A stretch of 64,000 bases of DNA from Limonium bicolor. Lineage: Eukaryota; Streptophyta; Magnoliopsida; Caryophyllales; Plumbaginaceae. The notes under the pieces are model-generated. The model saw nothing but the letters and a program-made list of their open reading frames with translations. It was not told the origin of the DNA and searched no databases. The position numbers and the translations under genes are program-made. The DNA lies in NCBI GenBank assembly GCA_023374045.1, contig CM041779.1, positions 267,726,131 through 267,790,130 of the forward strand, given 5' to 3'. Positions 17,013 through 63,997 of this stretch are shown piece after piece (positions within the stretch are counted from its first letter, which is position 1; every line of letters begins with the position of its first letter).

Positions 17013-17094
17013 GACAGGCAATGACACGTTAGCGTAGACATGCAGACACCTATAAAACCCATAGAAAGCCAAACATGGCCCTGACACCACTAAA

Positions 17095-19299
17095 TGCAAC
17101 GACCCCAAAACCATACTAGGAGTTAGGGATGTTACACGCCGCGTATCTATTACCTATTAACGCAAGGCTCTAACACATAACCCAAAATAGATGCAAAATA
17201 CACTTTATAAACTAAATCCAAAGATTACAATGCTTAAATATTTAGTACAAAGCAGAAGCAAGCTAAAGTACAAAGCTAAACAAAATACAAAGACGCTAAT
17301 CCACATCTACAAAAGCAGAAGGAAAAGTGAAACTGAAGGCAAAACAGAATCTTCGAACAAGGGCTAGACCTGTAAATCAGACGGAAATAGGGGTGAACCA
17401 AACTATAGCTCAGCAAGTGATAAACTTCATCAGCTGAGCATGCTCAAAACATATACTGAACATATACATATACATAACTTTAACATAATAGGTCAAAAGT
17501 TGAAGCAAAAATCAGATAAGGGAAGAAGCTTTGCCAAATCAGGTAAAAAGCATAGACAAAGCTTAACAAAACTGAGGTGGGACACTAGACACCAGCTGAC
17601 ACATCAGAAGGACTCACATAAGGTCCTATGGATCCGAAGATCCCACATCAGAAGCCGTAGAGACAGCTATGGACGCGTTGGTCACTAAACATCCAAGGGA
17701 ACCTGAGAGAGAGAACAGAAGGGAACCCGAGGGAATAGCAGAAGGAATTCCTGTGCAGCATGCTACGGGATAGCCCGACCCGACTATCCAAGGCTCAGAA
17801 GCTAAACATCTAGGTCCCAAAACAGAAGCTTTGTGAAACCGAGCAAAAGCCTTAATAGAACAGAGCAGAGCGGAAAGCAGAATGTTATCAAAACATATCA
17901 GAAGCCTTAACAAAACAGAAGTCGTAAACCGACTAACACATACAAAAGCTAAACCGTAAACAGAAGTTCAAATGCCCCATTAGAGCAATACTGAGATCGG
18001 AAACATAATGGCGGTTTTCAGAATGTAAAACTCATATTCACAAGCTAAAACACATTCCAATAGCTAGTACACACTGAAAGGAAACCAACGCCACAAACGA
18101 CACTCAAAATAGAGCTAAAACTCAAAAGTTACGCAAAGCAGACATGTGTCTAGACATTTGTCTGACCTTGCATATCTGGACACACGCCGAGGACAAAACC
18201 AATAAACGTCTGGACATCTGTCTGGACTTACATGTCCAGAGAAAGACCGTAAATCAGCAAATAGGTGCGTCCAAACTTGTGTCCGGGCTTGCATGTTCGG
18301 ACACAAGTTGAACAGAAACCCGGAACTCGTCCTCGCCACGTCCGGACATACATGTTTAGACGCGAGTCCGTACAGCACACAAAACACATCGAGATGAGCC
18401 TGTCCGAATCCACGTTCCGGACACTGTAAAACCTCCAGAATTCAATGTCAAATGCAGAGCAAATCCATGGCTAAAATCTTCCATAATTTATACATAATTA
18501 ATCATAGCAAAGTAGCACAACAAAAACACATTTCCACGAGGTTTTGGCACATCAAAATGCAAACTAAAATCAGTCAGAAACATCACAATCAGAAATTTAA
18601 ACAAACATATACGAAAGCGAACAAAACCGGAATCCCCGTGGTTGAACACACCCACCCGAATCCATTAACCACCTACCTCACATCCGATGCTACGCAATCT
18701 CTGCGGACCCAACAATCACTCTCCTTGAAAACTCCACTCGAATCGACCAACATCGAACTGAACACCTCCTGAATTGAAAATGAAATCTAGAAAGAAGAGG
18801 GGATGAACTGAATGAGGAAATGAAATTAGAATTCTCGAATCTTACTGGATGATCGAACACAAGAAGACCCCAATTCCCACGACCCGAAACCAAAGATCAA
18901 TCGGCCAAGAAATTGGCTAGAGAATGATGGAAGTTGAGGGAAGAAGGAAGAGCGCAAAGGGAGAAAGAGAGCACGGGAAAACTGACGAGATGAAAGCTAG
19001 GAAAAAGAGGGAAATAAAAGAGTAAAGTAGAAATCCCTTTATTACTAACTAGTAAAGAAATAATAAAAAAACGAAAAATTAAAAGAGCTAATATTAATAA
19101 TCCCTCCCTTACTAGTAATTATATATTGAAAGAAGAATGGACAAAGTAATTCCCTTCTCACAATATGAATACAAAAGAAGGCAAATAACATTATGGACGA
19201 ACTAACATATGAGCAACATACTATGAACTCCCTTTTACGGAACCTGAACAAAATAAATTTGAATGAAACAAAATAAATTAAAAAAACTGGGTCATAACA
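17095..19299 (-). repeat. Array E, LTR 1 (2,205 bp)
   Basis: Plus-strand ends are TGCAACGACCCC and GGGTCATAACA, next to a degenerate PBS complement on the left and a C-rich polypurine complement on the right (19300-19315). It contains TCCGGAC/GTCCGGA repeats at about 18140-18425. Confidence 0.85.
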
Positions 19300-21047
19300 A
19301 TATACCCCCCTTAAAATGAATTTCATCCTCAAAATTCCACGAAACCTGGAATAGGAACAAGGGCACACCATGTGCTGGCATATTACTGACACCCAGGCAT
19401 ACAAAGGAACCTCATAGATCAAAAGGTTAACCTGCACAGGGAGTTGACACTTAGAGCAGAACCCTCAAACTAATAGATGGACAGAAGGATGAACAGAAGA
19501 TGACTAACACACAGCTACATAGATGGAACACTCTCACATCTCAGAACTCACATCTCACAGAGCTGACTCTTATTACTGAACCGACTCACATGCTAGGAAC
19601 ACATAACAAAAGATAACTGAAAACTAAGCTTGAAAGAACATGAGCCACTCTCCCCAAAGCTAAATCTCAGGACTCGCTAGCAGAAGGACAAAGCAGAAGG
19701 TTGTTGAAGGCTACGCGTGAAAGAAGCTGAACACACTCAACCTACCGCTAACTGACTAACAGAAGACACAAAGCAGAACTCTCTACCACTTTGCGTAGGG
19801 CACGAGAAGTAGCACACATACATCAAAGGAGCTCGTATTCAAGGAACCCACACTCAGAACAAAACTCACAACTGGTAAACTGACAGAAAGACAAAGCAAA
19901 AGATCACTTACACATCTCGACAACTCTCTCTTCAAGAGCTAGCACACATAACTTACTAGCAGATCCACTGATTGAAAGAACGAAGCAGAAGATTACAACA
20001 CCCACTTAGCCTTAAAGGGAACAAAAGAGACACACTCAAATCACAGGAGCTCTTTCTTTTAGAGCTAGCACACCCTGAACGAACTGGATCACTCACTAAC
20101 AGAAGGGACGAAACAAAAGACTAACTGAGGAATGCAAACATATGCACCACAAGTGTAGAAGCCCTATTAACACTAAAACCTACTGAAGGGGTCTTAACTC
20201 CGAAAGCTTGGACTCACAAGGAGTAAACACTTGGTCCTCATAAGAAGATTCACTAACAAAATGAGCAAAACAATAGATGATAGGTGGCTGATCTTGAAGG
20301 AACTTGAGCAACACTCAAACTTACTGATGACTAACTGACAGGTGGAACACAATGAAGACTACAAAAGCTCAGGCTAGAGGCACAAAAGAAACTCTTAACT
20401 CCCTCAGAAGATGTCCTATCCAAAGGACCAAACACCTACAAGCTCTCACCACAACTCACTCAGAACCAAAACACAATTTACACTCCGGATCACACATCAA
20501 ACCCTTCATAACTCACATCTCGGACCGAACTCACAAACCTAACCTCATATCTAAAACGCATAACTCACATACTAAGCTCACACCTAGCCAGATCACACAA
20601 CTGAAACACTTCAGAATCGAAGTCATAACTTACCACCTGAGCCAACTCATCTGAACTAACCTACATCTCACAACCCGAACACGTCTCATTAACTCTCCTC
20701 CCAGAACACCATGCAAACTCACAACCCGAGCACACATCTCTAAAAAAACAGGACTCACATTTGGTCATCCTTTTCCAAAGGACCCAACTCCCTCAGGCTC
20801 AGACTCAAAGCACATAAAGCATACAGACAAACAGATACTACGCTTTCGCTGCACTACTCTGATAATGGGCAACCATAGGGCAAACGAATAAAACTGACTC
20901 CAGATATCAATCAAATCAGAGAGTAGGTAGTAGACAAATCATGCACCAAACAACACACAACACGTAACAGGCAATGACATGATAGCGTAGACATGCGGAC
21001 ACCCATAAAACCCAAATAAAGCCAAACCTGGCTCTGATACCACTAAA
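19300..21047 (-). other. Array E, internal region 1 (non-coding)
   Basis: Runs from the polypurine tract (19300-19315) to the PBS (complement of TGGTATCAGAGCC, 21029-21043). It has low complexity, with recurring ACTCACA, AGCTAGCACAC and ACAGAAG words. The longest frame (20352-20654) lacks motifs and is not preserved in the sister copies. No gag or pol remnant is visible. Confidence 0.75.
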
Positions 21048-21652
21048 TGCAATGACCCCAAAACCACCCTAGGAGTCAGGGACATTACACACTGCGTATC
21101 TATTACCTAATAACGCAAGGCTCTAACACATACTGAAACAGATGAAAAATACACTTTATAAACTGAATCTAAAGATTACAATGCTTAAGCATTTAGTACA
21201 GAGCGGAAGCAAGCTAAAGTACAAAGCTGAACACACTACAAAGACGCCAAGCCACAACTACAAAAGTAGAAGGAAAAGTGAAACTAAAGGCAAAGCAGAA
21301 TCTTCGAACAAGGGTTAAACCTGCAAATCGACAGAAATAGGGGTGAGCCAAACTATAGCTCAGCAGGTGATAAACTTCATCAGCTGAGCATGCTCAAAAC
21401 CTATACTGAACATATACATATACATAGCTTTAACAAAACAGGTCAAAGGTCGAAGCAAAAATCAGACAGGGGAAGAAGCTTTCCCAAATCAGATACAGAG
21501 TAGAGATAGAGCTTAACAAAACCGAGGTGGGACACTAGACACCAGCTGACTCATCCAAAGGGCTCACATAACATCCTATGGATCTGCAGATCCCACATCA
21601 GAAGCCGTGGAGGCAGTTATGGACCCGTCGGTCATTAAACATCCAAGGGACC

Positions 21653-21708
<56 letters not shown>

Positions 21709-23301
21709 AGGGAATCCGAGGGAATAACAGAAGGAATTCCTACGCAGCATGCTACGGGACAGCCCAACCCAAGTATCCAAGGCTCAGAAGCTAAACTTCT
21801 AGGTCCCAAAACAGAAGCTTTGCAAAACCGAGCAAAAGTCTTAATAGAATAGAGCAGAGCGGAAATCAGGATGTTATAAAAAAATATTAGAAGCCTTAAC
21901 AAAACAGAAGTCGTAAACCGACTAACACATACAAATGCCAAACCGTAAACAGAAGTTCAAACGCTCATTTAGAGCAATAACGAGATCGGAAACATAATGG
22001 CAGTTTTCAGAATGTAAAACTCTTATTCACAACATTCCAATAGCAAGTAAACACTGAAAAGAAACCAACACAACAAACGACACTCAAAACGGAGCTAAAA
22101 CGTAAAAGTTACGCAAAACAGACCTGTGTCCAGACATGTGTCCGACCTTGCATGTCCTGACACACGCCGAGGACAAGGCCAACAAACGTTCGGACATCTG
22201 TCCGGACTTACATGTCTGGACAAAGTCTGTAAATCAGCAAATAGGTGCGTCTGAACTTGTGTCAGGGCTTGCATGTTCGGACACAAGTCAAATAGAAACC
22301 CGGAACTCGTCCTCGCCATGTCCGGACATACATGCCCGGATGCAAGTCCGTACACCACACATAACACAGCGAGATGAACCTGTCCTAAGCCACATCCGGA
22401 CTTACATGTCCGGATGCAAGTCCGGTCACTCTAAAAACTGCAGAATTCAATGTCGAATGCAGACCAAATCCATGGCTAATATCTTCCACAATTTATACAT
22501 ATTTAATCATAGTAAAGTAGCACAATGAAAACACATTTCCATGGGGTTTTGGTAGATCAAAACACAAACTAAAATCAGTCAGAAACATCATAATCAGAAA
22601 ATTAACACAAACATATACGGAAGCGAACAAAACCGGAATCCAGGTGGTTGAACACACCCACCCGAATCAATTTACCACCTACCTCACATCCGACGCTACG
22701 CAATCTCTACGGATCCGACTATCACACTCCTAGAAAATTCCACTCGAATCGCCCGACATCGAACTGAACACCTCCAGAATCGAAAATGAAATCAGGAACG
22801 AAGAGGGGATGAACTGAACGAGGAAATGAAATCAAAATTTTTGAATCTTACCTGATGATCGAGCACATGAAGACCCCAATTCCGATGACCCAAAACCAAC
22901 GATCAATCGGCCAAGAAATTGACTAGAGAATGATGGAAGTTGAGGGAAGAATGAAGAGTGCAAAGGGAGAAATAGAGCACGGGAAAACTGACGAGATGAA
23001 AGCCATGAAAGAGAGGGAATTAAAAGAGTAAAATAGAAATCCCTTTATTACTAACTAGTAAAGAAATAATAAAAAAAGGAAAAAAGAGTGAATATTAATA
23101 ATCCCTCCCTTACTAGTAATTATATATCGAAAGATGAATGAACAAAGTAATTCCCTTCGTACAATATGAATACAAAAGAAGGCAAATAACATTATGGACG
23201 AACTAACAAAGGAGCAACATACTATGAACTCCCTTTTGCGGAACCTGAACAAAAATAAATTAGAATGAAACAAAATAAATACAAAAAACTAGGGCATAAC
23301 A
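21048..23301 (-). repeat. Array E, LTR 2 (2,254 bp)
   Basis: Same ends as LTR 1. Much of the extra length is a GA dinucleotide expansion at 21655-21704, where LTRs 1 and 3 have only a few GA units. Confidence 0.85.
21655..21704. repeat. (GA)25 microsatellite in LTR 2
   Basis: Fifty bases of uninterrupted GA. The corresponding place in LTRs 1 and 3 reads CCTGAGAGAGAGAACAG, so the expansion happened after the array formed. Confidence 0.95.
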
Positions 23302-24706
23302 ATATAGCCCCCTGAAAATGAATTTCGTCCTCAAAATTCCACGAAACCTGGAATAGGAACAAAGGCACACCATGTGTTGGCATATTACTGACACCTAGGC
23401 ATACAAAGGAACCTCGCAGATTGAAAGGTTAACCCGCATAGGGAGTTGACACTCAGAGCAGCAGCCTCAAGCTGATAGACGGACAAAAGGACGGGCAGAA
23501 GGTGACAAGCACACAGCTACACAGATGGAACGCTCTCACATCTCACAAAGCTTACTCTTAGAACTGAACTAGCTCACAGGCTAGGAACAAGTAACAAAAG
23601 ATAACTGAAAACTAAGCCTGAAAAAACTGGAGCCACTCTCCCCAAGCTAAATCTCTGGACTCGTTAGCTGAACGACAAAGCAGAAGGTTGCTGAAGGCTA
23701 CGCGTGAAAGCAGCTGAAAACACTCAACCTACCGCTAACTGACTGACAGAAGACACAAAGCAGATGTCTCTACCACTTTGAGTGGGGCACGAGAAGAAGC
23801 ACACATACATCTTAGGAGCTTGCATTCAAGGAACCCGCACTTAGAGCAGAACTCACAACTGTTTACCCGACAGAAGGGCAAATCAGAAGATCACTTACAC
23901 ATTTCAGAAGCTCTCTCTTCAAGAGCTACCACACATAACTTACTAGCAGATCCACTGACAGAAAGAACGAAGCAGAAGATTACACACACTCACTTAGCTC
24001 TAAGGGCAACAAAAAAGACACACTCAAATCACAGGAGCTCTAGCTTCAAGAGCTAGCACTCCTTGAACGAACTGGATCACTCACTAACAAAATGGACGAA
24101 ACAAAAGACTAACTGAGGAATACAAACATACGCACCACAAGTGTAGAAGCCCTACAAACACTAAATCCTACTGACAGGATCTCAACTCCGAAAGCTCGGA
24201 CTCACAAGGAGCTAACACTTGGTCTCATAAGAAGATTCACTAATAAAATGAGCAAAGCAATAGATTACAGGTGGCTGATCTTGAAGGAAACTGAGCAGCA
24301 CTTAAACTTACTGATGACTGACTGATGGGTGGAACACAAGGAAGACTACTAAAGCTCAGCCTAGAGGCACAAAAGAAACGCTCAACTCCCTCAAAAGACG
24401 TCATATCCAAAGGACCAAACATCTACAAGCTCTCACCACAACTCACTCAGAACCAAAACACAATTTACACTCCGGATCACACATCAAACCCTTCATAACT
24501 CACATCCCGCACCGAACTCACAAACCTAACCTCATATCTAAAACGTATAACTCACAGACTAAGCTCACACCTAGCCGGATCACACAACTGAAACACTCCA
24601 GAATCGACGTCATAAATTACCACTTGAGCCAACTCATCCGAACTCACCTACATCTCACAGCCCGAACACGTCTCACTAACTCTCCTCCCAGAACACCATG
24701 CAAACT

Positions 24707-24711
24707 CACAA
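24707..24711. repeat. Target-site duplication CACAA of element F, left copy
   Basis: CACAA directly before TGAAATACC. The uninterrupted sequence of the sister unit (20710-20735) has a single copy at this site. Confidence 0.9.
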
Positions 24712-27184
24712 TGAAATACCCCAAACCTTAATATATTGATGAAATATCTAATTATAATAAAATAAGGCTATAACATGCCTTAGAAACATTAGAAAAGAGT
24801 TAAACAACAATGTGCACAAAAAAACATACCTTAAGCGTTTAAACCAAAAACGCACCTTAGAGCACGAAAATGTGCTTTAAGGAAAAATGTGCCTTAAGCA
24901 TTTATACATGGAACTAAAAGGCTAATGAGCCTAAATACCAATAAGAAGTAAGGGAACAACAATAAAATGGTCATAGGAACCATTACGTGTACACACAAAT
25001 TAAGTATACAAGTCCACACAAAAACCGGTACTAAACTGACGAAAGTCAAGGAGAAACCACTAAACGACTTGGTTTAAATTGGAATGAGCAACATGCTATT
25101 TCACGAACAAAGTTTCTAAAGGTTGTAAATGTACTAAGAAACATTTAAACTAGCCAAAACAAATTGCAAAATCAATGTGAACCCGGAAGCACATAAAATG
25201 CGTTTTAAGGCATTTTTGGCTATGTAACATACCAAACACATGGTATAAGTCATTAGGAACGAGTTTAATTCATCAAATGTTACATTAATACAAGGTAAAA
25301 CAAAAAAATCAGATCAAAGAGGGATAGGGCTTCCGACTTGGGGGGTGAGTCACCAAGGCTATATTTGCTTTTAAATTCACTATTTCAACTACCAAGACTT
25401 TCATTAATTGCCAAAGCATCTGTCCCCTTAGTGAATCATTAATCAAAATCTTACCTGTCAAATGACAGCTTCCAAGGTTGTAGCTCATCCTCTCTTTGAA
25501 GAAACAACACAAAAAAACTCCATGTTCTTAGATTTGAGCCTTAAAGAACACCTTTCCTTGCACAAATCATAACTTTCTCGTCCTAGCTCCAAATCACAAG
25601 ATAGATAGCTCGTTGGAAACCTCTCTTGAAGAGATTTACAAACATAGCTCATGAGCCCCAAGATTCTCAGGAAAAACCACTAAGAAGTGCCTTTGATTCT
25701 CGAGGTAAAACATTGCCTTCTTGAAAACTTCTTATTCTTTGGTTTTTGTTACAGCCGATTGGCATGGGATACTAACCCATCTTATTCTCCATCTTGTTGT
25801 ATAATTTTGGGGACAATTCCTTTAGCAAGTTGCTGGAAAATTTCTAAGGAATTCAAGCTTAAATATTAAGCTAAAAGGCTAATATACAAGGTAAACTCTA
25901 CAACTACCTATTTCATGGTTCTAAATGTTGATCTATATATGATCTAACCTATTGTATACCTTGTTTATAATTTCCGATTTTGTTAGGTGTTAGATTTAAT
26001 TTTTGGCACCTAAAATGTTAATATTTTGTAAATCTAAAATTAGATTTATAACCCTTATGATATAAGCTTTAATATAAGCTATCATAATATATAAGAAAAG
26101 TTCATATACTATGATTTAAGAGGTGGCCAAAAATTAAGAGAGTTTATATGAGTTAGGAAAATTATATAACTAAGTTAAATTAAAGGAATTAGTATATTTA
26201 AGAGTAATATGTAAAATTTGAGAAGTTTTAGCTATATATAATAATTGCCGAAAATATATATGAGTTTTTATGAAATTTATGTAGTTTGGATGATGAGAAA
26301 ATAATTGTAGAATTAAGTTTACAATTTATAAAGAGTTTATAAGTGTTACTAGAATTTATAAGGTTTTTGGTATATTTAAAGTTAATAAAAGATAGTATAT
26401 GTATACTACCACTTTAGTTAATTAAATCTGGTGATTTAGAGATGTTTAAAATGATTTTTGATGTTCAAAAATGTGTAGGAAAATTAGTTACGAAAATTAG
26501 AAATTAATTAGAGTTAAATTGGTTAATAAATGACTTAGGATAAAAGAAAAGACCACAAGGGTAAAATGGTAATTTCCGTGGTCAAATGTGGTCAAACATG
26601 TTCAAACATGGTCAATGACAGTTTGTAAAATGTTTAGAGGAGCGAATAAAATTTGTAGCAAAAGATTAGATATTAAAAGGATAAAGGAATAAAAAGTTAA
26701 GTTAAATTAACTTTAGGGGTAATATTGTAATTAATGGAAAGTTAGGGGGGTTTGACCATAAAAGACAGGTCAAACTTGGATATATTTTGGTAAATGACCA
26801 AAAGTATAAATAAAAATAAATTAAGTAAGACTTTGGAAGAAATTAGAAATAAAAATAACAAGTTTAGAACTTATTATGAATAAAATAGAGATTAAGAGAA
26901 AACTATGGGTAAGTAATGTAAATAACACATTTTTTATGTGTTTAAAAGGTTAAGGAAATTAAATTAAGAATTTAGAAACAAGTTGTAAAAGAAACAGAGT
27001 TAAGACGGGGTTAAACGAGACCCGTATATAACTTAAGGTATACGAGGGGTATACCCGTAATTTAATAAGTATAGGAGAAATCATTACTTAAGGTATTTTA
27101 ATGAAAATACAAGTTATATTGGGAAAAGAAATAAATACGTATGATACGGGTATCATACAGACGTATACGAAAAATTTTAGTGTA

Positions 27185-27450
27185 CATGAATAGTACTCGT
27201 ATACATGAATAGTAAATACATATACATGAATAGTAAATACGTATAAATGAATAGTAAATACGTATACATGAATTGTAAATACGTATAAATGAATAGTAAA
27301 TACGTATACATGAATAGTAACTACGTATATATGAATAGTCAAATACGAGACGTATACATGAATAGTAAAATACGTATACGTGAATAGTTAAATACGTATA
27401 CGTGAATAGTAAAATACATATTCGTGAATAGTAAAATATGGTGAATAGTG
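27185..27450. repeat. About 21-bp minisatellite in the F 5' LTR
   Basis: About a dozen units of roughly TGAATAGTAAATACGTATACA, variable at a few positions. The 3' LTR has a matching array at 37550-37840. Tyr/Ile/Cys-rich frames on the opposite strand are translations of the repeat. Confidence 0.9.
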
Positions 27451-28332
27451 AAAATACGAAAATTAAGTTATTTAACCACACCACCCTAATGAACTATAGG
27501 GGTGGAGTAAGGTGACCAAAATAGTCAAGACGTCATCTGGGAGTGGACGAACGTCGATAGGCTAAGGTATGGGATTCTTGTAGCTTGTTTGCTAAAGAGG
27601 ACTACCTCGGTTTGTGTGCTATGTGTTATTGTGATACGACCAAACGGGATTAAGCATTAAACAAATTTACTGTATTGTTGATGTGTGTCCATTGCACACC
27701 AACACGACTTGATTCAGAGCTTGTTCATTAACTACGTTTAGTGACAAATGTATAAGGTTACAATACTCCAAGTTGTTAGTAGGTTAATACCGAGAGAGGT
27801 TTAACTAACCAATTGTCAATGAGACTTCAACTAACTGGAACTTGTGAGGAGAGGAATCCGGGACTAACTCCGGTCATGCATGTTTAGGATAGGAGGTCGG
27901 CATCTGTATCAGATCTGTCTTCCGCCTTGGGTCGACAAACTGACCCGGCCATCTCGAATGAACAGTTCGAGATGGGAGGCAAATTCAGGAGGCGCAGGAG
28001 GGTCAAGCCTACACCCCTCATAACTTAAGAATTAATGTTTATTAAACCAGTGGAGCTAATAACTCATTGGCTAGGGTTACTTTGACCCAACAAAAATAAA
28101 TATATCAGTTAGAGAACACCAGTTCTTTTAGGAGAATGGTTGACACTTATAAGGTATGGTCAAACACGAGAACTAAACAATTATCAGGCCTCAGGAGTTA
28201 GGAATCTAACTTACTCATTGATGGGCGTCCATTACGACGTTTGATTTATTTGAGTTGTGAGTGTTTCACATAAATATGTTGTTGTTATTGTACTTCTTAT
28301 TATTATTTGTATGAATAATCAACTGCATGTAT

Positions 28333-28432
28333 ACGACAAAGTAGTCGTGTGTAGCCTGTTAGCTTGTGGGCTGCATGTTTTCTGTACCAGCCATGTGCTG
28401 AGCCCCTTGGGGCCTGTGATTTAAACTTTGTA
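28333..28432 (+). promoter_or_regulatory. Conserved stem-loop block in the F 5' LTR
   Basis: Contains ACGACAAAGTAGTCG, then CAGCC-ATGT-GCTG, then GCCCC-TT-GGGGC, then a T-rich stretch ending in TTTGTAG (28432). The 3' LTR copy ends in TTTGCAG at 38550. Confidence 0.55.
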
Positions 28433-28789
28433 GGTAGGTGCCAGACGAGGACCCAACCTGAGAGTAGGAGTGGGTAGAGCATTAAGGGTTTAATTTGCAT
28501 TACAAGTGTGCCTGTACACTCGCTTTATAAACTGTGGTAGTAAGTTGTAATAATAGGAGAGATACTTCAGACTCGGTATTGTATTTTGTTTTAAGACTTT
28601 GTACGCACTTATGTTCGGTACACTCGGGTCCATCAGACCGTAGCTTGACACTGGAATAAGCCTAGTTAGTCACGTGGGTGACTGACGGTGGTAACACCAA
28701 CTTTTAGTATTTTCTTCCGCTGTGTTGTAATATTGTTGCAGGTTTGTTATGTGATGGTTCAGGTTTAGCAGTTGGGGTGTTACAAAAAG

Positions 28790-28801
28790 TGGTATCAGAG
28801 C
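28790..28801 (+). promoter_or_regulatory. Element F primer binding site (tRNA-iMet)
   Basis: TGGTATCAGAGC, five bases after the LTR end. It is complementary to the 3' end of initiator tRNA-Met and matches the PBS of J and, in reverse, of array E. Confidence 0.92.
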
Positions 28802-29009
28802 GTAGTTACGCTCTGATGACTAGAGTTACCGAACTAGAGTAGGTACCGAGTTAAAGAAATAGTCATGGGTTTGGGTGTGAGATAGTAGTGTAGCTGAGTC
28901 TGATAAGCCACCAATAAGGGTGGAGTATCTTACTGTTTAGAGGATGTTATAAACGCTTTAACCAAAGCCTTTGTAATCACGAGCTTACTGTGCATTTATA
29001 CTTATTCAG
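28802..29009 (+). other. Element F leader before gag
   Basis: About 200 bases between the PBS and the gag ATG with no credible frame. Confidence 0.7.
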
Positions 29010-30403
29010 ATGTCAGGAAGAAGAGGACGAGGCCGAGGCCGTGGCGAAGAAGGAGATCAGGCTGCTGAGATCCCGGGTGCACAGACGATAGTGGAGATCG
29101 TTGCTGCCGCCCTGGGGCACATGGGCTATCAGCCCGGTGCAGGACCGCCTGCTCCACCACCACAGCCTCGGGAGCCAAACTGGGTGAAGAGTCTCGCTGA
29201 CCTTCGACCCCCACCGTTTAGAGGGGAGACAGACCCCACCAAACTTGAGTCGTACATCTCAGAGCTGGAGACTACCTTCGAGACTCTTGATATACCTGCG
29301 GGAGCCAAGGTAAGACTTGCTGCGTTTTACCTGAAGGATGTGGCGGGCGATTGGTGGAAGCTAGTTAGGGCCGAACATGTGGCCAACCCCAACTTCGGCT
29401 GGGAGCAGTACGTGGCCTTGCTGAGAGCCAAGTACTACCCCACCCATGTCCAGACCAAGAAGCGTTTAGAGTTGGACGCGCTGAAGCAGACTGACAAGAT
29501 GACGGTGGACGACTACTATTCTCAGTTCACCGCTCTTATCCGTCTTCTACCAGGATTGGTATATTCAGACCAGATTCTGGTTGACCGCTTCTATGGCGGG
29601 CTGAGTCACCGACTACGCTATGGCATGGGCCCGACAAGCTATACTACCTTGCAGGTAAAGAAAGTTAAGACAAGTTTAAATGAATGAACGTTATATTAAA
29701 ATGAATGTGAGACTGATATTTTTTAAGAGCAGGAGTGCTATCATGCCGCTGCTAAAGTTGAAATCACCGTCCAGCTGAGGGACGAAGATCAGGCACTGAA
29801 GAGAAAAGTTGTTGGAAATAGCTCTGACAATCAGGGGCAGGGGACAGAAGAAAGGTAAGTACCAGCCCCCACCCAGAAAGGCTCAAAGGGTAACCAACCT
29901 AAGGCTGCTGAAGAGCCACAAAGCAAACCTACAGCTACGCATAGCAGCGAAGCCTCTGCGCTCGCCTGCACCAAAGGGTAACAAGTAACTCCTTAAATTG
30001 AGTTAGCAGTCAGATATCAACCTTGAAATTCAATTACTAATGTTGTAAGCAAACAGGTATCGAGACCGGCAAGGGGACCGGCGGGGGATATAAGTGCCGC
30101 TACAACTGTCGTAGGTGCAACCAAGACCACCCTGGAGTTGATTGTGAAGGCAATAAGGTGGAGTGCAATTTCTGTGGTGTATTCGGACACCGAGCTTTCG
30201 AATGTTTCAGAAACCCCGAGAGTAAAGCCTATAGACCTGGGTGGAAGGCCAAGGGCAAGGGCGTGGCCGCTCCGAATCCTGGAACCGACGGTCCAAAGGA
30301 CACGCCAGCTGCTAACAGGGACCCCGGGTTGTCCAGCGATCAGGGCCGCCTGCACTACATATGGTGGACCGGGAAGACGAGGCTGAACCCTCATCGAGAC
30401 CAG
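29010..30403 (+). pseudogene. Element F gag, intron-containing and partly decayed
   Basis: Exon 1 starts at ATG 29010 with a basic Gly/Arg N-terminus (MSGRRGRGRGRG), then the retrotransposon gag domain (WWKLVRAE, LLRAKYYP) to codon CAG at 29652-29654. An apparent 78-nt intron (29655-29732) follows, then an exon beginning GAG TGC. That exon has TAA at 29856-29858 and stays open to about 29980; a second gap (about 29981-30050) looks intron-like but I cannot fix its borders. The last part has a CCHC knuckle, CNFCGVFGHRAFEC, at about 30162-30203. A 2-nt shift near 30357-30362 precedes the donor at 30403. Gag would form the particle and bind RNA. Confidence 0.8.
29655..29732 (+). other. Predicted phase-0 intron in gag of F (78 nt)
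   Basis: GTAAAG donor after CAG, AAGAGCAG acceptor before GAG. Read straight through, the frame hits TGA. Element J has an equivalent GT...AG interruption between the same CAG and GAG codons. Confidence 0.7.
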
Positions 30404-30566
30404 GTACCACTACAACCTATTAGGGAGAAAACTGTATGCTTATCGCATTTCATGCATGAATTAGTGATTTATGTTTTGAGTGAGTTTCTAGTTAGTTAAT
30501 TAGAACTCATGTAGATTTTAAAACCTTATTCAACATTTGTTCCAATACCTTCAACACCTAGCTTAG

Positions 30567-31261
30567 AAGAGACCGACCTAAAGGTTCACGAATTCCCAAG
30601 GGAGCAGTGTCAGGTCATCCGGCCTGGTATGATCTTATTAAAAGGATACCTGTCACCAAAGGCACAAATCGCCATCATCAGGAGATGTAGCCAGCTAGGA
30701 GTGGGACCGGGAGGTTTCTATACACCGGAATACCCTGGAGGATCGAGAATGAAGCTAAGAATGATGTGCTTGGGTAAGGACTGGAACCCTTACACCAACA
30801 CTTACCAAAAGACGAGAGCAGTGGATGGAACAACACCACCAGAGTTACCTGAGGAGTATCATACGGTTAATACACAAGCCGTAGGGATTGCTCAACAACT
30901 TGAAGCAGATCCAATCCCGAACCTTGAAGCAGACCTCTGCATTATCAACTTCTACGAAAAGGAGGGACGACTTGGACAACACCAAGATAAAGACGAGATA
31001 GCAAAGTCTCTTAACCGAGGGATACCCGTAGTGTCTTGGTCCATTGGAGACGACGCCGAATTCCTATATGGCGAGCAGAAGCGCGCAAACCAAGCCCAGA
31101 AAGTGGTACTTAAGTCAGGAGATATTCTAATCATGGGTGGAAAATCGAGAATGCTGTATCACGGTATCAAGAGGATTAAGTTGAATACGGCACCATCGAC
31201 GGTAATCAATGCCACACACATGAGACCGAGACGCCTGAACTTAACCTTTAGGAAGTACTAG
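30567..31261 (+). CDS. AlkB-type Fe(II)/2-oxoglutarate dioxygenase (ALKBH1-like) inside element F
   Basis: Open from the predicted acceptor to TAG at 31259-31261; the first internal ATG is 30629 (210 aa from there, against 216 for E. coli AlkB). Numbering from that Met: an N-terminal ALKBH1-like stretch LGVGPGGFYTPEY, then MMCLGKDWNP; N107-x-Y109 with iron ligands H118 and D120 (NFYEKEGRLGQHQD) at the same spacing as in AlkB; PVVSWSIGD; GDILIMGGKSR; third ligand H178 (YHG); and RLNLTFR (R202, N204, T206, R208), the 2-oxoglutarate-binding signature. Family members oxidatively remove methyl groups from DNA or RNA. Homology-like sequence extends upstream of Met 30629 (VIRPGM), supporting an exon start at about 30567. 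There are no stops or frameshifts, unlike the neighbouring gag and pol. It looks like a captured, intronless host cDNA. Confidence 0.9.
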
Positions 31262-31393
31262 CCATGTAATACACTGAAGTATTGTAATAGAAAACTCATA
31301 ATGTAAAAGGATGGTTTAAATAATATCAGTGCTGATTACTCATTTTCGACTCGTATTATACCATCAATACTTATGATCCTTATGAATACATAG
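31262..31393 (+). other. Tail of the predicted intron after AlkB
   Basis: AT-rich, stop-filled sequence from the AlkB stop to the acceptor at 31393. No further motif is seen. Confidence 0.5.
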
Positions 31394-34300
31394 GTTGTGG
31401 ATTCGGTTCGAAAGGTGCATTAAGCTTACTCATAGAGGCACAGGCCGATGAGAGCGGCACTATCCTCACGGGTACCTTTCCGATCAATGGCGTTGATGTA
31501 TCAGTACTATTCGACTCAGGGGCCTCGCATACCTTCGTCTCATCATCATTTGCAAGGAGGTTGGGGCTAGACACTGACGAGCTGCCAGACTTCACGGTTA
31601 CGCTCCCGTCTAAGGAGAAGGTTCGATGCACTCGCTACTATCGAGCAGCCACTATACGAATTAGGGGAGAAGACTTTCCTATCACCTTGATTGAGTTTAG
31701 AGATTTAGGGTTTGATGTTATATTCGGGATGAACTGGTTAGAGCGGCACAAGGGTCGTATCCTCTGCGCCGAGCACTGACTGCTACTCAGGAGTCCATCT
31801 GGGGTTACTATATCATACCGCCAGAGACCTAGAGAGCCTTCAACCAAGATCATCACCGCTATGGCCATGTGTCGACAGCTGAGAAAGAAGAAAGAAGTGT
31901 ACCTTTGCTATGTTCAGGATATAGAGAGAGATTCAGAGTTCGACCCCAAAGTACCAGTGGTGTCGGAGTTTCCCGACCTCTTTCCAAGGGAACTACCCGG
32001 CATGCCACCACCACGGGAGGTAGAGTTCACCATCGAGCTGCTACCAGGAACCGGACCGATAGCCAAGGCGCCTTACCGCATGGCTCCAGCTGAGATGAAT
32101 GAATTGAAAGAACAGTTGAGAGACCTGCTCGACAAAGGGTTTGTGCGGCCTAGTGTATCACCATGGGGAGCGCCAGTACTCTTCGTGAAGAAGAAGGATG
32201 GCAGTCTCCGCCTCTGCATCGACTATAGGGAGTTGAATACTGTTACTATAAAGAACAAGTATCCGCTACCACGCATAGATGATTTATTTGATCAATTGAA
32301 AGGGGTATCTGTGTTCTCCAAGATTGATCTCAGATCAGGGTATCATCAGATTCCTGTTAGAGAGAAGATATTAGAAGACGGCATTCCGGACGAGATATGG
32401 CCACTACGATTTACAGTGATGCCGTTTGGTTTGTCGAACGCACCGGCGATATTTATGGATTTGATGAACCGTTTGTTCAGGGAACAGTTGGACAAGTCAG
32501 TTGTGGTCTTCATCGATGATATACTCATATATTCAGGGTCGAGAGGTGAACATGAAAGTCACTTGAGACAAGTTTTAGAGATACTAAGGGAGAACCAGCT
32601 TTATGCTAAGTTCTCCAAGTGCGAGTTTTGGCTTGACCAGGTCTCTTTCCTTGCATGTCATCTCAGATGCTGGGATCTCAGTGGATCCAGCAAAGATTGA
32701 CGCGTGCGCACCTGGCCAAGGCCGAAGTCAGTTACCGACATCAGGAGTTTCCTCGGCTTGGCAGGTTATTAGGAGATTTGTTAAGGACTTTTCTAAGGTC
32801 AGCAAGCCAATGACCAGTTTGATGAAGAAGGATGCACCGTTTGTATGGACAGATGACTGTGAGAGTTCATTTCAGAGCTTGAAGGACTCATTGACTTCTG
32901 CACCTGTTCTGACTATCCCAACGGTACAGAGGGATTTGAGGTATATTGTGACGCATCAGGTAGGGGATTGGGTTGTGTACTCATGCAGCATGGCAAGGTA
33001 GTTGCTTATGCCTCTCGCCAGCTGAAGAAACATGAGGAAAACTACCCCACACATGATCTTGAGTTAGGAGCTGTAGTCTTCACCCTGAAGATATGGCTCC
33101 ATTATTTATACGGGGTTAGTTTGATAGTTTACACCGACCATAAAAGCTTGAAGTACATATTCACTCAGAAGGAGTTGAATATGAGACAGAGAAGATGGTT
33201 AGAGTTCCTGAAGAACTACAACATTGACCTCCAGTACAATGAAGGGAAGGCCAATGTTGTAGCTGATGCTCTGAGTCGTCGAGCACACTCGCTTCATGCC
33301 ATGGTTGCTAGTTCCAGCTTGATTGACGAGGTGCGAGAGGCTCAGCAGAGCGATTCGTATATGATGGAGATTAGACAGAAGCTGATAGAGGGTACATTCG
33401 AGAGCCAGAAATATGACTTCGAGTTACATGATGATGATCTGATCAGATGGAAGGGCCGATTATGCATTCCTCGCAGCAGCACTGAGCTGAAGGAGCGCAT
33501 TCTACGAGAGTCACACTGTTCTTCTGTTTCTATTCATCTAGGAGCTTCGAAAATGTATAAAGACATGAAGCGTTACTTCTGGTGGACTGGGATGAAGAGT
33601 GACGTTACTGAGTTTGTAGTGAGGTGCCTAACTTGCCAGAAGGTAAAGTTCGAGCACAGGCGACCTGGAGGCATGGTTCAATCAATGCCAGTTCCAGAGT
33701 GGAAGTTTCATGATATCTCGATGGATTTCGTGGTTGGACTCCCACCTACCAGGGGAGGTCTGAACATGATATAGGTTGTAGTTGATCGCCTGACCAAGGT
33801 AGCCCGATTCATACCGATGAAGGACACTTGGAAGGTAACGAAGCTTGCTGAGCTGTTCGATAAGGAGATCATGAGACACCACGGAGTACCTAAGACCATA
33901 GTATCTGACAGAGACATCAGGTTCCTTCAAGATACTGGAAAACTACACGGGAAGCGCTGGGTACAGAACTGAAGCTGAGTACCGCGTTCCACCCTCAGAC
34001 AGATGGTCAGACTGAGCGTACGATTCAGACACTTGAGGACATGTTACGAGCATGTGCCTTCGACTTCCAGAGCAGTTGGATTGATAAGTTGCATCTGATC
34101 GAGTTCTCATACAATAATAGCTATCATGCTACGATCAAGATGGCACCTTTCCAGGCATTGTACGGCAGACCATGTCGCACACCACTATGTTGGGATGAGT
34201 CAAGTGAAGCGGTTATTATAGGACCGGAGTACTTAGAGCAAGTTCAGGCTGAGGTTCAGCAAATTTGAGAGAATATGAAGGCAGCCCAGGATAGACAGAA

Positions 34301-34763
34301 GTCGTATGCTGATGCGCGACGATGAGACTTAGAGTTCTCTGTGAACGATCAGGTATTTCTACGGGTTTCGCCAATGAAGGGAATATTTAGATTTGGACAA
34401 AAGGGCAAGTTGAGCCCAAAGTTTGTAGGTCCATATACCATTACGGAGCGGGTGGGCCCAGCTGCTTACAGGTTAAACCTACCTGGTGAGCTGGGTAAAG
34501 TGCATGATGTTTTCCACGTCTCACAGCTTAAGAAATACATGCACCACCCCTCCCATGTTTTGCAGGCCGAACAGCTAACCATAGAGCCAACCATGAGATC
34601 AGTAGAGACCCCTCAGAGGATTCTGGATACGAAGACTAGGGACACTCGCCACAAGTCAGTAAGACTGGTGAAGGTTCTCTGGTCCAACCAGGACGTCGAG
34701 GAGGCTACTTGGGAGTTAGAGGATAAGATGCGAGCGAAGTACCCTTCGCTCTTTTCAGACTAG
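31394..34763 (+). pseudogene. Element F pol: protease, RT, RNase H, integrase, chromodomain-like tail
   Basis: Protease has LFDSGASHTFV (about 31509-31541) and ends at TGA 31777-31779. RT runs in the same frame ([13 protein letters not shown], then FIDDILIY at about 32512-32532). Near 32365-32410 two opposite indels replace a conserved RT segment with a short out-of-frame stretch. Several frameshifts follow at 32650-32960, then RNase H and integrase with the zinc module, the D/D/E residues, TAG at 33772-33774, a frameshift near 33928, TGA at 34266-34268 and another near 34324. The tail has VRLVKVLW and EEATWE and ends at TAG 34761-34763. It cannot make a full polyprotein. Confidence 0.93.
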
Positions 34764-35071
34764 ATTTCTTGTAAGGGTACGGGGCATACCCTTTTTAAGG
34801 GGGGTAGAGCCTCTTTGCTTTTGAGTTTGTAAGCAAACAATCACATAGTGTTGATTGTTGTTTGTTGCTTACTTAGTGTTAAGTATGTATCATACTTTAT
34901 GACAGACCTTATGAGTCTGAACCTTAATAAAAGTGACAGACATTATGAGTCAGAAAGCGTATATAATGTTGTGTGATCTATGTGATTTTGTATGTGAAGT
35001 TACCTGTGTATTCTAAGAGATATTAGATGCATAGGAACTTTGGGGACAAAGTTCTTTTAAGGGGGGTAGAT
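34764..35071 (+). other. Element F 3' untranslated region with two polypurine tracts
   Basis: The tract at 35055-35071 (TTTTAAGGGGGGTAGAT) primes against the LTR; a second at 34793-34808 lies about 260 bp upstream. The arrangement matches element A. Confidence 0.85.
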
Positions 35072-38000
35072 TGAAATACCCCAAACCTTAATATATTGAT
35101 GAACTATCTAATTATAATAAAATAAGGCTATAACATGCCTTAGAAACATTAGAAAAGAGTTAAACAACAATGTACACAAAAAAACATACCTTAAGCGTTT
35201 AAACCAAAAACACACCTTAGAGCACGAAAATGTGCTTTAAGGAAAAATGTGCCTTAAGCATTTATACATGGAACTAAAAGGCTAATGAGCCTAAATACCA
35301 ATAAGGAGTAAGGTAACAACAATAAAATGGCCATAGGAACCATTACGTGTACACACAAATTAAGTATACAAGTCCACACAAAAACCGGTACTAAACTGAC
35401 GAAAGTCAAGGAGAAACCACTAAACGACTTGGTTTAAATTGGAATGAGCAACATGCTATTTCACGAACAAAGTTTCTAAAGGTTGTAAATGTACTAAGAA
35501 CACATTTAAACTAGCCAAAACAAATTGCAAAATCAATGTGAACCCGGAAGCACATAAAATGTGTTTTAAGGCATTTTTGGCTATGTAACATAACAAACAC
35601 ATGGTATAAGTCATTAGGAACGAGTTTAATTCATCAAATGTTACATCAATACAAGATAAAACAAAAAAATCAGATCAAAAGAGGGATAGGGCTGCCGACT
35701 TGGGGGGTGAGTCACCAAGGCTATATTTGCTTTTAAATTCACTATTTCAACTACCAAGACTTTCATTAATTGCAAAAGCATCTTGTCCCCTTAGTGGATC
35801 ATTAATCAGACTCTTATGTGTCAAATAAGAGCTTCCAAGGTCGTAGCTCATCCTCTCTTTGAAGAAACAACACAAAAAAACTCCATGTTCTTAGATTTGA
35901 GCCTTAAAGAACACCTTTCCTTGCATAAATCATAACTTTCTCGTCCTAGCTCCAAATCACAAGATTGATAGCTCGTAGGAAACCTCTCTTGAAGAGATTT
36001 ACAACCATAGCTCATGAGCCCCAAGATTCCCAGGAAAAACCACTAAGAAGTGCCTTTGATTCTCGAGTTAAAACATTGCCTTCTTGAAAACTTCTTATTC
36101 TTTGGTTTTCATTACAGCCGATTGGCATGGGATACTAACCCATCTTATTCTCCATCTTGTTGTATAATTTTGGGGACAATTCCTTTAGCAAGTTGCTGGC
36201 AAAATTTCTAAGGAATTCAAGCTTAAATGTTAAGCTAAAAGGCTAATATACAAGGTAAACTCTACAACTACCTATTTCATGGTTCTAAATGTTGATCTAT
36301 ATATGATCTAACCTATTGTATACCTTGTTTATAATTGCCGATTTTGTTAGGTGTTAGATTTAATTTTTGGCACCTAAAATGTTAATATTTTGTAAATCTA
36401 AAATTAGATTTATAACCCTTATGATATAAGCATTAATATAAGCTATCATAATATATAAGAAAAGTTCATATACTATGATTTAAGAGGTGGCCGAAAATTA
36501 AGAGAGTTTATATGAGTTAGGATAATTATATAACTAAGTTAAATTAAAGGAATTAGTATATTTAAGAGTAATATATAAAATTTGAGAAGTTTTAGCTATA
36601 TATAATAATTTCCGAAAATATATATGAGTTTTTATGAAATTTATGTAGTTTGGATGATGAGAAAATAATTGTAGAATTAAGTTTAAAATTTATAAAGAGT
36701 TTATAAGTGTTACTAGAATTTATAAGGTTTTTGGTATATTTAAAGTTAATAAAAAATAGTATATGTATACTACAACTTTAGGTAATTAAATCTGTTGATT
36801 AAGAGATGTTTAAAATGATTTTTGATGTTCAAAAATTTGTTGGAAAATTAGTTACGAAAATTAGAAATTAATTAGAGTTAAATTGGTTAATAAATGACTT
36901 AGGATAAAAGAAAAGACCACAAGGGTAAAATGGTAATTTCCGTGGTCAAACGTGGTCAAACGTGTTCAAACTTGGTCAATGACAGTTTGTAAAATGTTTA
37001 GAGGAGCTAGAATAAAATTTGTAGCAAAAGATTAGATATTAAAAGGATAAAGGAATAAAAAGTTAAGTTAAATTAACTTTAGGGGTAATATTGTAATTAA
37101 TGGAAAGTTAGGGGGTTTGACCATAAAAGACTGGTCAAACTTGGATATATTTTGGTAAATGACCAAAAGTATAAAAGAAATTAATTAAGTAAGACTTTGG
37201 AAGAAATTAGAAATAAAAATAACAAGTTTAGAACTTATTATGAATAAAATAGAGATTAAGAGAAAACTATGGGTAAGTAATGTAAATAACACATTTTTTA
37301 TGTGTTTAAAAGGTTAAGGAAATTAAATTAAGAATTTAGAAACAAGTTGTAAAAGAAACAGAGTTAAGACGGGGTTAAACGAGACCCGTATATAACTTAA
37401 GGTATACGAGGGGTATACCCGTAATTTAATAAGTATCGGAGAAATCATTACTTAAGGTATTTTAATGAAAATACAAGTTATATTGGGAAAAGAAATAAAT
37501 ACGTATGATACGGGGTATCATACAGACGTATACAAAAATTTTTAGTGTACATGAATAGTACTCATATACGTGAATAACATACGTACACATGAATAGTAAA
37601 TACTTATACATGAATAGTAAATACGTACAAATGAATAGTAAATACGTATACATGAATAGTAAATACATATAAATGAATAGTAAATACATATACATGAATA
37701 GTAACTACGTATTTATGAATAGTCAAATACGAGACATATACATGAATAGTAAAATACGTATACGCGAATAGTAAAATACGTATACATGAATAATATAATA
37801 CGTATACGTGAATAGTAAAATACGGTGAATAGTGAATATACGAAAATTAAGTTATTTAACCACGCCGTCTTAATGAACTATAGGGTCAGAGTAAGGTGAC
37901 CAGAATAGTCGAGACGTCATCTGGGAGTGGACAAACGTCGATAGGCTAAGGTATGGGATTCTTGTAGCTTATTTGCTAACGAGGACTAAGCATTAAACCG

Positions 38001-38901
38001 ATTTACTGTATTGTTGTTGTGTGTCCATTGCACACTAACACGACTTGATTCAGAGCTTGTTCATTAACTATGTTTAGTGACAAATGTATAAGGTTACGAA
38101 TACTCCAAGTTGTTAGTAGGTTAATACCGAGAGAGGTTAAACTAACCAATTGTCAATGAGACTTCAACTAACTAGAACTTGTGAGGAGAGGAATCCGGGA
38201 CTATCTCCGGTCATGCATGTTTAGGATAGGAGGTCGGCATCTGTATCAGATCTGTCTTCCGCCTTGACCCGACAAACTGACACGAGAACTAAACAATTCT
38301 CAGGCCTCAGGAGTTAGGAATCTAACTTACTCATTGATGGGCGTCCATTACGACGTTCGATTTATTTGAGTTGTGAGTGTTTCACATAAATATGTTGTTG
38401 TTATTGTACTTCTTATTATTATTTGTATGAATAATCATCTGCATGTATACGACAAAGTAGTCGTGTGTAGCTCTGTTAGCTTGTGGGCAGCACGTTTTCT
38501 GTACCAGCCATGTGGTGAGCCCCTTGGGGCCTGTGATTTAAACTTTGCAGGTAGGTGCCAGACGAGGACCCAACCTGAGAGTAGGAGTGGGTAGAGCACT
38601 AAGGGTGTAATTTGCATTACGAGTGTGCCTGTACACTCGCTTTATAAACTGTGGTAGTAAGCTGTAATAATAGGAGAGATACTACAGACTTGGTATTGTA
38701 TTTTGTTTTAAGACTTTGTACGCACTTATGTTCGCTACACTCGGGTCCATCAGACCGTAGCTTGAGACTGGAATAAGCCTAGTTAGTCACGTGGGTGACT
38801 GATGGCGGTAACACTAACTTTTAGTATTTTCTTCCGTTGCGTTGTAATATTGTTGGAGGTTTGTTATGTGATGGTTCAGGTTTAGCAGTTGGGGTGTTAC
38901 A
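35072..38901 (+). repeat. Element F 3' LTR (3,830 bp)
   Basis: TGAAATACCCC to GGGGTGTTACA, followed by CACAA (38902-38906). Compared with the 5' LTR it has scattered substitutions, its own minisatellite copy (37550-37840) and deletions, including about 30 bp near 37985 and about 200 bp near 38280. Confidence 0.92.
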
Positions 38902-38906
38902 CACAA
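38902..38906. repeat. Target-site duplication CACAA of element F, right copy
   Basis: Matches 24707-24711; array E sequence resumes here. Confidence 0.9.
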
Positions 38907-40625
38907 CCTGAGCACACATCTCTAAAAAAATAGGACTCACATTCGGCCATCCTTTTCCGAAGGACCCGACTCCCTCAGACTCAGACTCAAAGCACAGAAA
39001 GCTTACAAACAAATAGACACTACGCTTCCGCTGCATTACTTCTACAGTGGACAACCACAGAGCAAACACATACAACTGACTCTAGATATCAATCAAAGCA
39101 GAGAGCAGGTAGCAGACAAATCATGCACTAGGCAACACAGAACACGTAACAGGCAATGACACGGAAGCGTAGACATGCAGACACCCACAAAACCCAAAGA
39201 AAGCCAAACTTGGCTCTGATACCACTAAATGTAACGACCCCAAAACCACTTTAGGAATCAGGGACGTTACACACCGAGTATCTATTACCTAATAATGTAA
39301 GGCTCTAACACATATCCCGAAACTGATACAAAATACTCTTTATAAACTGAATCCAAAGATTATAATGCTTAAACATTTATTACAGAGCGGAAGCAAGCTA
39401 AAGTACAAAGCTGAACAAAACACAAAGACGCCAAGCCACAACTACAAAAGCAGAAGGAAAAGTGAATCTGAAGGCAAAGCAAAATCTTCGAACAAGGGCT
39501 AGACCTGTAAATCAGACGACAATAGTGGTGAGCCAAACTATAGCTCAGCGGGTGATAAACTTCATCAGCTGAGCATGCTCAAAACATATAATGAACATAT
39601 ACATATACATAGCTTTAACTAAACAGGTCAAAGGTCAAAGCAAAAATGAGACTGGGGAAGAAGCTTTCCCAAATCAGATATAGAGCAGAGACAGAGGTTA
39701 ACAAAACCGAGGTGGGACACTAGACACCAGCTAACACATCAGAAGGACTCACATAACATCCTATGGATCCGAAGATCCCACATCCGAAGCCGTAGAGATA
39801 GCTATGGACCCGTCGGTCACTAGATATCCAAGGGACCCTGAGAGAGAGAACAGAAGGGAACCCGAGGGAATAACAGAAGGAATTCCCGCGTAGCATACTA
39901 CGGGATAGCCCGACCCGACTATCCAAGGCTCTGAGGCTAAACATCTAGGTCCCAAAACAGAAGCTTTACAAAACCAAGCAAAAGCCTCAATAGAACAGAG
40001 CAGAGTGGAAAGCCGAATGTTATCAAAACATATCAGAAGCATTATCAAAATAGAAGTCGTAAACCAACTAACACATACAAAAGCCAAACCGTAAACAGAA
40101 GTTCAAACGCTCCTTTAGAGCAATACCGAGATCGGAAACATAATGGCAGTTTTCAGAATGTTAAACTCATATTCACAAGATAAAACACATTCCAATAGCT
40201 AGTACACACTTGTAGGAAACCAATGCCACAAACGACACTCAAAACTGAGCTAAAACTAAAAAGTTACGTAAAACAGACTTGTGTCCGGACATGCGTCCGA
40301 CCTTGCATGTCCAGACACACGCCAAGGACAAAACCAACAAATGTACGAACATCTGTCCAGACTTACATGTCCAGACAAAGTCCACAAATCAGCAAATAGG
40401 TGCGTCTAAACTTGTGTCCGGGCTTGCATGTTCGGACACAAGTTGAACAGAAACCTGGAACTCATCCTCGCCGAACGTACACCACACAGAACTCAGCGAG
40501 ATGAACCTGTCTAAAGCCACGTCCGGACTTATATGTCCAGACGCTAGTCCGGACACTGTAAAACTGCAGAATTCAATGTCGAATGCAGAGCAAATCCATG
40601 GCTAAAATCTTCCACAATTTATACA

Positions 40626-40630
40626 TAATT
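40626..40630. repeat. Target-site duplication TAATT of solo LTR G, left copy
   Basis: The intact sister sequence (18490-18503) has TACATAATTAATC; here TAATT borders the insertion and recurs at 55121-55125. Confidence 0.88.
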
Positions 40631-45495: not shown

Positions 45496-45500
45496 GTTTC
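45496..45500. repeat. Target-site duplication GTTTC of element H, left copy
   Basis: GTTTC before TGTTAGTGCTG; matches 54704-54708. Confidence 0.92.
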
Positions 45501-46074: not shown

Positions 46075-46076
46075 AT

Positions 46077-46088
46077 TGGTATCAGAGC
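46077..46088 (+). promoter_or_regulatory. Element H primer binding site (tRNA-iMet)
   Basis: TGGTATCAGAGC two bases after the LTR. Confidence 0.92.
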
Positions 46089-54114: not shown

Positions 54115-54129
54115 CAAAAAGGGGGAAAC
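54115..54129 (+). promoter_or_regulatory. Element H polypurine tract
   Basis: AAAAAGGGGGAAAC abutting the 3' LTR; primes plus-strand synthesis. Confidence 0.88.
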
Positions 54130-63213: not shown

Positions 63214-63900
63214 ATGTCAGGTAGACCACGTGGTGGAGGCCGCGGGCGCGGCACTGGTGATACGGGTGACCAGGGCGAGAACATTACGGCACAGGTTATG
63301 GCTGAGGCAGTGGCAGCCGCCGTAGCCCAGATGGTTCCCCAGTTAGTGGTTGCGATGCAGCAGCAGCAGCAAGGCGGTGCGGACCAACAAGGGCCACAAC
63401 CGCAACCACAGCCACGCGAGACCAACTGGGTCAAAGCGTTGGCAGATCTAAGACCACTGTCATTCCATAGGGAGACCGACCCTAGTAAGCTGGAGGCGTA
63501 TATCTCCGGGCTGAAGACCGCTTTCGAGACCTTGGATGTGCCTGCTAGTGCCAAGGTTCGACTTGCCGCTTACTACCTGAAGGGTTCGGCACAGAGTTGG
63601 TGGAAGTTGGTACGGGAGGGCAGAGTTGCTGACCCTACCTTTCAGTGGAGGGAGTACACGGCTCTGCTACGAGCCAAGTACTACCCGATACATGTGCAAG
63701 AGGCCAAGCGCCTTGAGTTAGACAGTTTGAGACAAGGGGATAAGATGACGGTAGATGAGTACTACTCCGCTTTCATCAGACTTATCCACCTGCTACCAGA
63801 TATGGGTTACTCAGACCAGATACTGGTAAACCGTTTTTACAATGGACTCAGCTATCGTCTACACTACGGAATGGGGCCAACCGGATATACTACTTTGCAG
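63214..63900 (+). CDS. Element J gag, first exon (partial gene)
   Basis: ATG at 63214 with a Gly/Arg-rich N-terminus (MSGRPRGGGRGRG), a short Gln run (QQQQQ, CAG repeats near 63357), then the gag domain (WVKALADLRP, WWKLVREG, LLRAKYYP, YSDQILVNRFYNGLS). It ends at CAG 63898-63900, followed by an apparent intron. No lesions are visible in 229 codons. The gag N-terminal and capsid-like regions form the particle; the zinc knuckle is expected beyond the window. Confidence 0.9.
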
Positions 63901-63997
63901 GTAATGGAACTACAGTGTGTTGTGAATAAGTACGTATAGTGTGTAAATGTGATTGTGAGTTTGGTTTGCGGGGCATAACTAACACCCTAAATAATAG
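63901..63997 (+). other. Predicted phase-0 intron in gag of J (97 nt)
   Basis: GTAATG donor after CAG; AATAATAG acceptor before GAG at 63998; a good branch-point-like ATAACTAAC about 20 bases upstream of the acceptor. Unspliced translation reaches TAG near 63937. Position and phase match the intron of F. Confidence 0.7.

Follow-up and report, generated by a model that had tools for sequence, protein, structure and literature searches.

An ALKBH1-type AlkB frame between the gag and protease frames of a Ty3/gypsy retrotransposon in Limonium bicolor

The closest described system is that of the Phalaenopsis Gypsy elements (Gypsy_Pa_2799) – 25.5 kb long and of the Ogre/Tat type – whose ORF2 includes an ALKBH5-like domain found in vitro to bind RNA and to demethylate m6A, a screen of 121 plant genomes having detected no such domain in the others (PMC9289625). 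The orchid AlkB is spread over its element family, and the case is also named in the accessible part of a 2025 review (PMC12786077). The first-pass annotation of the DNA studied here, which held that no plant LTR element with such a gene had been described, was thus wrong in that general form, the orchid elements having been published in 2022 (PMC9289625). Among open-access papers we saw no other LTR case of the ALKBH1 type or in a chromodomain-type element.

AlkB domains are also named in Alphaflexiviridae, Betaflexiviridae and Closteroviridae (PMC9289625). In plant hosts, rice ALKBH1 (OsALKBH1, LOC_Os03g60190; PDB 5xeg/5xoi) removes 6mA from single-stranded DNA, and without it 6mA levels rise in R-loops and in some TE-related genes, as far as the accessible sections of that study go (PMC10469495). 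Introns, for their part, give more than one product per element in Ogre and in the Ty1/copia element EVADE, according to the accessible part of the review mentioned above (PMC12786077).

The element described here, F, lies in a 64-kb window – the whole stretch of 64,000 nucleotides that was analysed – and, like Gypsy_Pa_2799, is a plant element of the Ty3/gypsy LTR type that has an AlkB-family gene in addition, with the cofactor residues kept. However, the orchid elements have dual RNase H domains and their ALKBH5-like domain terminates a separate ORF2 of 565 aa, whereas F, at 14.2 kb, has an ALKBH1-type domain between its zinc-knuckle and protease frames and a chromodomain-like integrase end; no second RNase H domain was matched by Pfam in the F frames scanned. 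The primer sites differ as well, that of the orchid elements being of the tRNA-Arg type. Set against the orchid Ogre/Tat lineage, known here by its description, F is thus set apart by an AlkB of another subfamily located upstream of protease, by its integrase end, and by its primer site and size, and we read it as a separate capture. Activity on m6A has been found in vitro for the orchid domain; that of the F enzyme is predicted.

F also resembles the plant RNA viruses, as a mobile or viral genome with its own AlkB, although in viruses the domain stands in a replicase context. Many of the plant ALKBH1 host proteins listed have long N-terminal extensions, while the domain of F follows gag frames in an LTR element. 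As in Ogre and EVADE, more than one product is proposed for F, whose likely intron would differ from theirs in lying inside gag, after the capsid part, and in a chromodomain-type element.

A discrete insertion and its reading frames

Element F (24712..38901, plus strand; 14,190 bp) is bounded by two LTRs that align with each other, a left one of 4073 bp (24712..28784) and a right one of 3830 bp (35072..38901), with 113 differences over 3802 aligned bases (K2P 0.030). Both are flanked by the target-site duplication CACAA (24707..24711 and 38902..38906), and the joined flanks align at 90.5%, over 399 columns and without a gap, to a sister repeat that has no insertion (20525-20923), in which a single CACAA at 20720..20724 marks the empty site. 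F is therefore one discrete insertion with the AlkB inside it – the boundaries being those that the first-pass annotation had named – and whatever lies between the LTRs arrived with F or arose within it. The primer-binding site TGGTATCAGAGC (28790..28801, plus strand), 3′ of the left LTR, is one that we take to be of the tRNA-Met type; the polypurine tract AAGGGGGG (35059..35066, plus strand) lies 5′ of the right LTR.

With its LTRs, target-site duplication and gene order gag-PR-RT-RH-INT, F is a Ty3/gypsy element, and its Pfam domains follow the corresponding order: gag, protease, reverse transcriptase, RNase H, integrase zinc-binding, SH3 and a sub-threshold chromodomain. All frames are on the plus strand. 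The gag capsid exon (29010..29654; PF03732 at 1.9e-16 and PF19259, on an ORF at 28977-29687) is followed by a likely 78-nt intron (29655..29732) and by a frame with two zinc-knuckle-like motifs, recognised by eye and without a Pfam match (30041..30499). The AlkB frame (30515..31261) comes next, between two A+T-rich candidate introns with approximate ends, one 5′ of it (30404..30561; 68% A+T) and one 3′ of its stop (31262..31393; 71%). Downstream are the frames for aspartic protease (31336..31779; RVP_2, 6.6e-26), reverse transcriptase (31780..32700; RVT_1, 5.4e-30; interrupted downstream), RNase H with integrase zinc-binding (32863..33774; RT_RNaseH, 1.1e-33; Integrase_H2C2, 1.1e-17), the integrase core (33909..34268; without a Pfam match of its own, recognised by homology to a related element, E, at 92% identity over 113 aa), and the integrase SH3 and chromodomain-like end (34326..34763; SH3_Tf2-1, 1.8e-25). 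The Chromo score at this end is 23.4 bits, and 22.5 in E, against a Pfam cut-off of 25.1; the long LTRs would presumably hint at the Tekay clade of Chromovirus. In the F copy neither gag nor pol is continuous, both having stops and frame changes.

Elsewhere in the window, the 3′ part of element E (1-2624), cut before its gag side, holds an open 524-codon RNase H/integrase/chromodomain frame (755-2329), and the 5′ start of another related element, G (62995-64000), comprises a primer site and gag, the window ending before any AlkB region. Direct repeat units of about 4 kb (17014-24711, 38899-40630 and 55119-57224; 87.6% between the first two) seem to form one array, broken up by F and by another block of insertions. 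An LTR-like pair at 45500-46077 and 54129-54706 (99.3% identical), enclosing a Copia-type RVT_2 frame (48933-50480) and a zinc-knuckle frame (46549-47874), looks like a recent insertion; a plant transposon domain lies at 52515-53486. Another LTR-like pair (8931-10166 and 13219-14454; 98.4% identical over 1237 columns) encloses a 216-codon minus-strand frame without a Pfam match.

Identity and relatives of the AlkB

The AlkB frame is open from 30515 to a stop at 31259-31261 (248 codons), its first in-frame ATG being at 30629 (codon 39). The first-pass annotation had placed it at 30567-31261, uninterrupted between gag and protease; its position and stop hold, while the open frame is slightly longer at its 5′ end. 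A profile search, proposed there as a check, matches the frame to Pfam PF13532 (2OG-FeII_Oxy_2) at 9.6e-46 and 156.9 bits against a cut-off of 31.2, which excludes a chance match. The hallmark residues that had been picked out are there as well: N145-x-Y147, H156-x-D158 and H216 do not vary in an alignment of 48 sequences, R240 and R246 hardly vary, and F retains the metal, 2-oxoglutarate and base-stacking residues.

The predicted model takes the AlkB fold, confidently from codon 31 onwards, and matches OsALKBH1 at 3.5e-29 and 48% identity, far better than it matches the best viral AlkB (2e-11, 24%). A PDB sequence search taken up to an E value of 1 finds plant ALKBH1 (5xeg) at 3.9e-71 and no ALKBH5 chain. 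That F AlkB belongs to the ALKBH1-type class, as the first reading had assigned it, is therefore well supported, and it is plausible, as had also been proposed there, that such an enzyme would strip N-methyl groups from the RNA or DNA copies of the element.

As a query, the AlkB found 215 proteins among 360 candidates, and what follows describes the best 120 of these 215. The closest four are all unnamed (P0001, 72%; P0002, 58%; P0003, 70%; P0004, 64%), matches with a specific subfamily name are ALKBH1C/D-like, and named plant ALKBH1 proteins are at most 55% identical – so that the near-identical, recently captured host gene considered in the first-pass annotation was not seen among the database proteins listed. 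In a tree of 47 rows (46 of the 139 fetched proteins and the window's own, without other AlkB subfamilies), F AlkB groups with P0001 and P0003 (100/98), and these with P0004 and P0002 (100/100). The five-member group falls outside 36 rows of which the named ones are all angiosperm (96/94), but topologies that nest it with monocot or legume-type rows withstand the AU test (p-AU 0.155 and 0.161). We infer that the line of elements to which F belongs captured a plant ALKBH1 gene.

Fusions of another kind occur in eight of the proteins retrieved (P0128, P0130-P0132 and P0135-P0138; seven named as liverwort or green-algal, one unnamed), in which an ALKBH1-type domain is joined to PF23134 and, in three of the eight, additionally to PF06221; neither partner was found in angiosperm-named AlkB matches among those listed.

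A second pairing of gag with AlkB is suggested by a search of 1305 candidates with the gag frame of F, in which just one protein, P0139, matched at 1e-10, with 68% identity across 67% of the frame. P0001 and P0139 are each on one ENA contig, and both contigs are given as 26,621 bases; if this equal length means that the contig is the same, it would hold a second, diverged element with gag and AlkB. Among 18 matches of 550-1750 aa none joins AlkB to gag or pol domains, and the window has no second AlkB copy, the related elements E and G being cut by its ends before the AlkB region.

Selection on the AlkB and its likely splicing

Over 209 residues, F AlkB and P0001 share 152, about as good a preservation as that of gag (68%). 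With conserved columns defined from 116 listed relatives (P0005-P0120), the two sequences disagree in 4 of 72 conserved columns and in 53 of 137 others (Fisher 7e-8), and the other five of six AlkB pairs show the same bias away from conserved columns (p from 1.4e-4 to 1.3e-9). In the RNase H, integrase and chromodomain parts, elements E and F have a dN/dS of 0.04-0.07, from which it follows that the family evolved as working elements. Since a related AlkB is likely to stand beside a related gag elsewhere, it is likely that the line leading to F kept its AlkB under purifying selection. An argument from the intact AlkB frame itself was rejected, merely 0.51 nonsense changes being expected since insertion. 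The F copy, in turn, is likely to be decaying: besides its broken gag and pol, it has an AlkB with departures at 11 of 75 conserved columns, among them G239R and, next to the HxD motif, L155Q (against 5 of 72 columns in P0001).

How the AlkB is expressed is suggested by the end of gag. In F, gag coding ends after TTLQ at CAG/GTAAAG (29654/29655), and the gag frame of G (63214..63939, plus strand; 68.6% identical to that of F over 172 aa) ends at TTLQ with CAG/GTAATGG (63900/63901), while P0139 terminates in TTLQVLS. Synonymous sites between the gag frames of F and G are saturated, yet the junction is identical; the sequences after it are unlike each other, with an A+T content of 74% in F and, up to an end assumed at the window edge, 63% in G, against 44% in the exon. 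The simplest reading of a junction common to F, G and P0139 is a conserved gag intron, which is likely and which in F would run from GT to AG.

The AlkB itself is also likely to be reached by splicing from gag exons, as the A+T-rich stretches on either side of it and the lack of an ATG before codon 39, in spite of a confident strand at codons 32-36 of the model, would predict. A full exon model from gag to AlkB was attempted and given up, 351 splice combinations being stop-free and in frame and none clearly best; support is confined to the first gag intron, whose junction is common to three elements.

Possible targets and competing readings

We hold with moderate confidence that the AlkB between the zinc-knuckle and protease frames has been kept under selection, is spliced from gag and demethylates the RNA, cDNA or primer of the element itself. 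Its target, its timing and its link to Gag are what we infer. As its frame follows the zinc knuckles, the AlkB would arise either as a Gag product or beside one, and might travel with Gag and act on single-stranded or RNA:DNA intermediates of the element, clearing 6mA, m1A or m3C, such that reverse transcription and expression would be neither blocked nor marked for silencing.

The primer is a candidate target in light of HIV-1, where m1A58 of the primer tRNA sets the plus-strand stop and its loss lowers infectivity, according to the accessible part of one study (PMC13191261). Given this role and that of ALKBH1 as an m1A58 eraser, erasure could help or harm a tRNA-Met-type-primed element. A narrower proposal is possible but tentative: F would represent a second independent plant retrotransposon line with a demethylase, in this case a Gag-side ALKBH1-type enzyme, made from spliced gag and acting inside the particle, where it would remove m1A58 from the primer tRNA, or else 6mA or alkyl lesions from the RNA:DNA hybrid and from single-stranded cDNA.

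In purified form, human-type ALKBH1 acts on tRNA and chromatin as well, and F AlkB could thus have its target in the host. By this main rival, which we consider rather unlikely, the AlkB would be active and would weaken silencing of the element by removing marks from the RNA, tRNA or chromatin of the host. Rice ALKBH1 has an effect on 6mA in R-loops and on H3K27me3 at host genes (accessible part of PMC10469495), ALKBH1 is cited as a tRNA m1A58 eraser (accessible part of PMC7475180) and the orchid paper leaves both kinds of target open (PMC9289625), but the place of the AlkB frame among gag frames points, if weakly, to action near Gag.

We think it improbable that the AlkB is a one-off, functionless passenger, acquired when F or its close kin captured a host ALKBH1. 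The broken gag and pol and the extra AlkB departures of the F copy would fit such a history, in which an open frame proves little when so few nonsense changes are expected. Differences nonetheless avoid conserved columns in all six pairs tested, a second gag and AlkB pair probably exists, and none of the named plant proteins among the matches listed exceeds 55% identity.

It is very unlikely that the segment persists mainly because it serves as a non-catalytic spacer, or as an exon whose inclusion sets the ratio of gag to pol: the AlkB does have its own stop and A+T-rich candidate introns around it, and splicing control is known in Ogre and EVADE (accessible part of PMC12786077), but a spacer would not need the metal, 2-oxoglutarate and base-stacking residues. 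A viral source has next to no chance and was set aside, for although plant RNA viruses have AlkB domains (PMC9289625) and viral folds do match the model, these are more distant, and the closest solved and database relatives, among the matches listed, are plant ALKBH1 proteins.

To return to an AlkB that acts on the nucleic acids of its own element, confirmation would mean that unrelated plant LTR lineages have twice captured an AlkB enzyme, a different one each time, and that methyl marks on retrotransposon nucleic acids are a recurrent selective pressure. One could then test directly whether the mark that counts is m6A in mRNA (orchid, ALKBH5-like) or 6mA, m1A or m3C in cDNA, hybrids or primer tRNA (ALKBH1-type). 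If a gag intron is indeed conserved in a chromodomain-type element, the short list of spliced plant LTR elements would, moreover, become longer; the exceptions named in the accessible part of the review are Ogre and EVADE (PMC12786077). If the narrower proposal above is true, methyl erasure would be a recurrent weapon of plant retrotransposons, directed at different marks in different lines.
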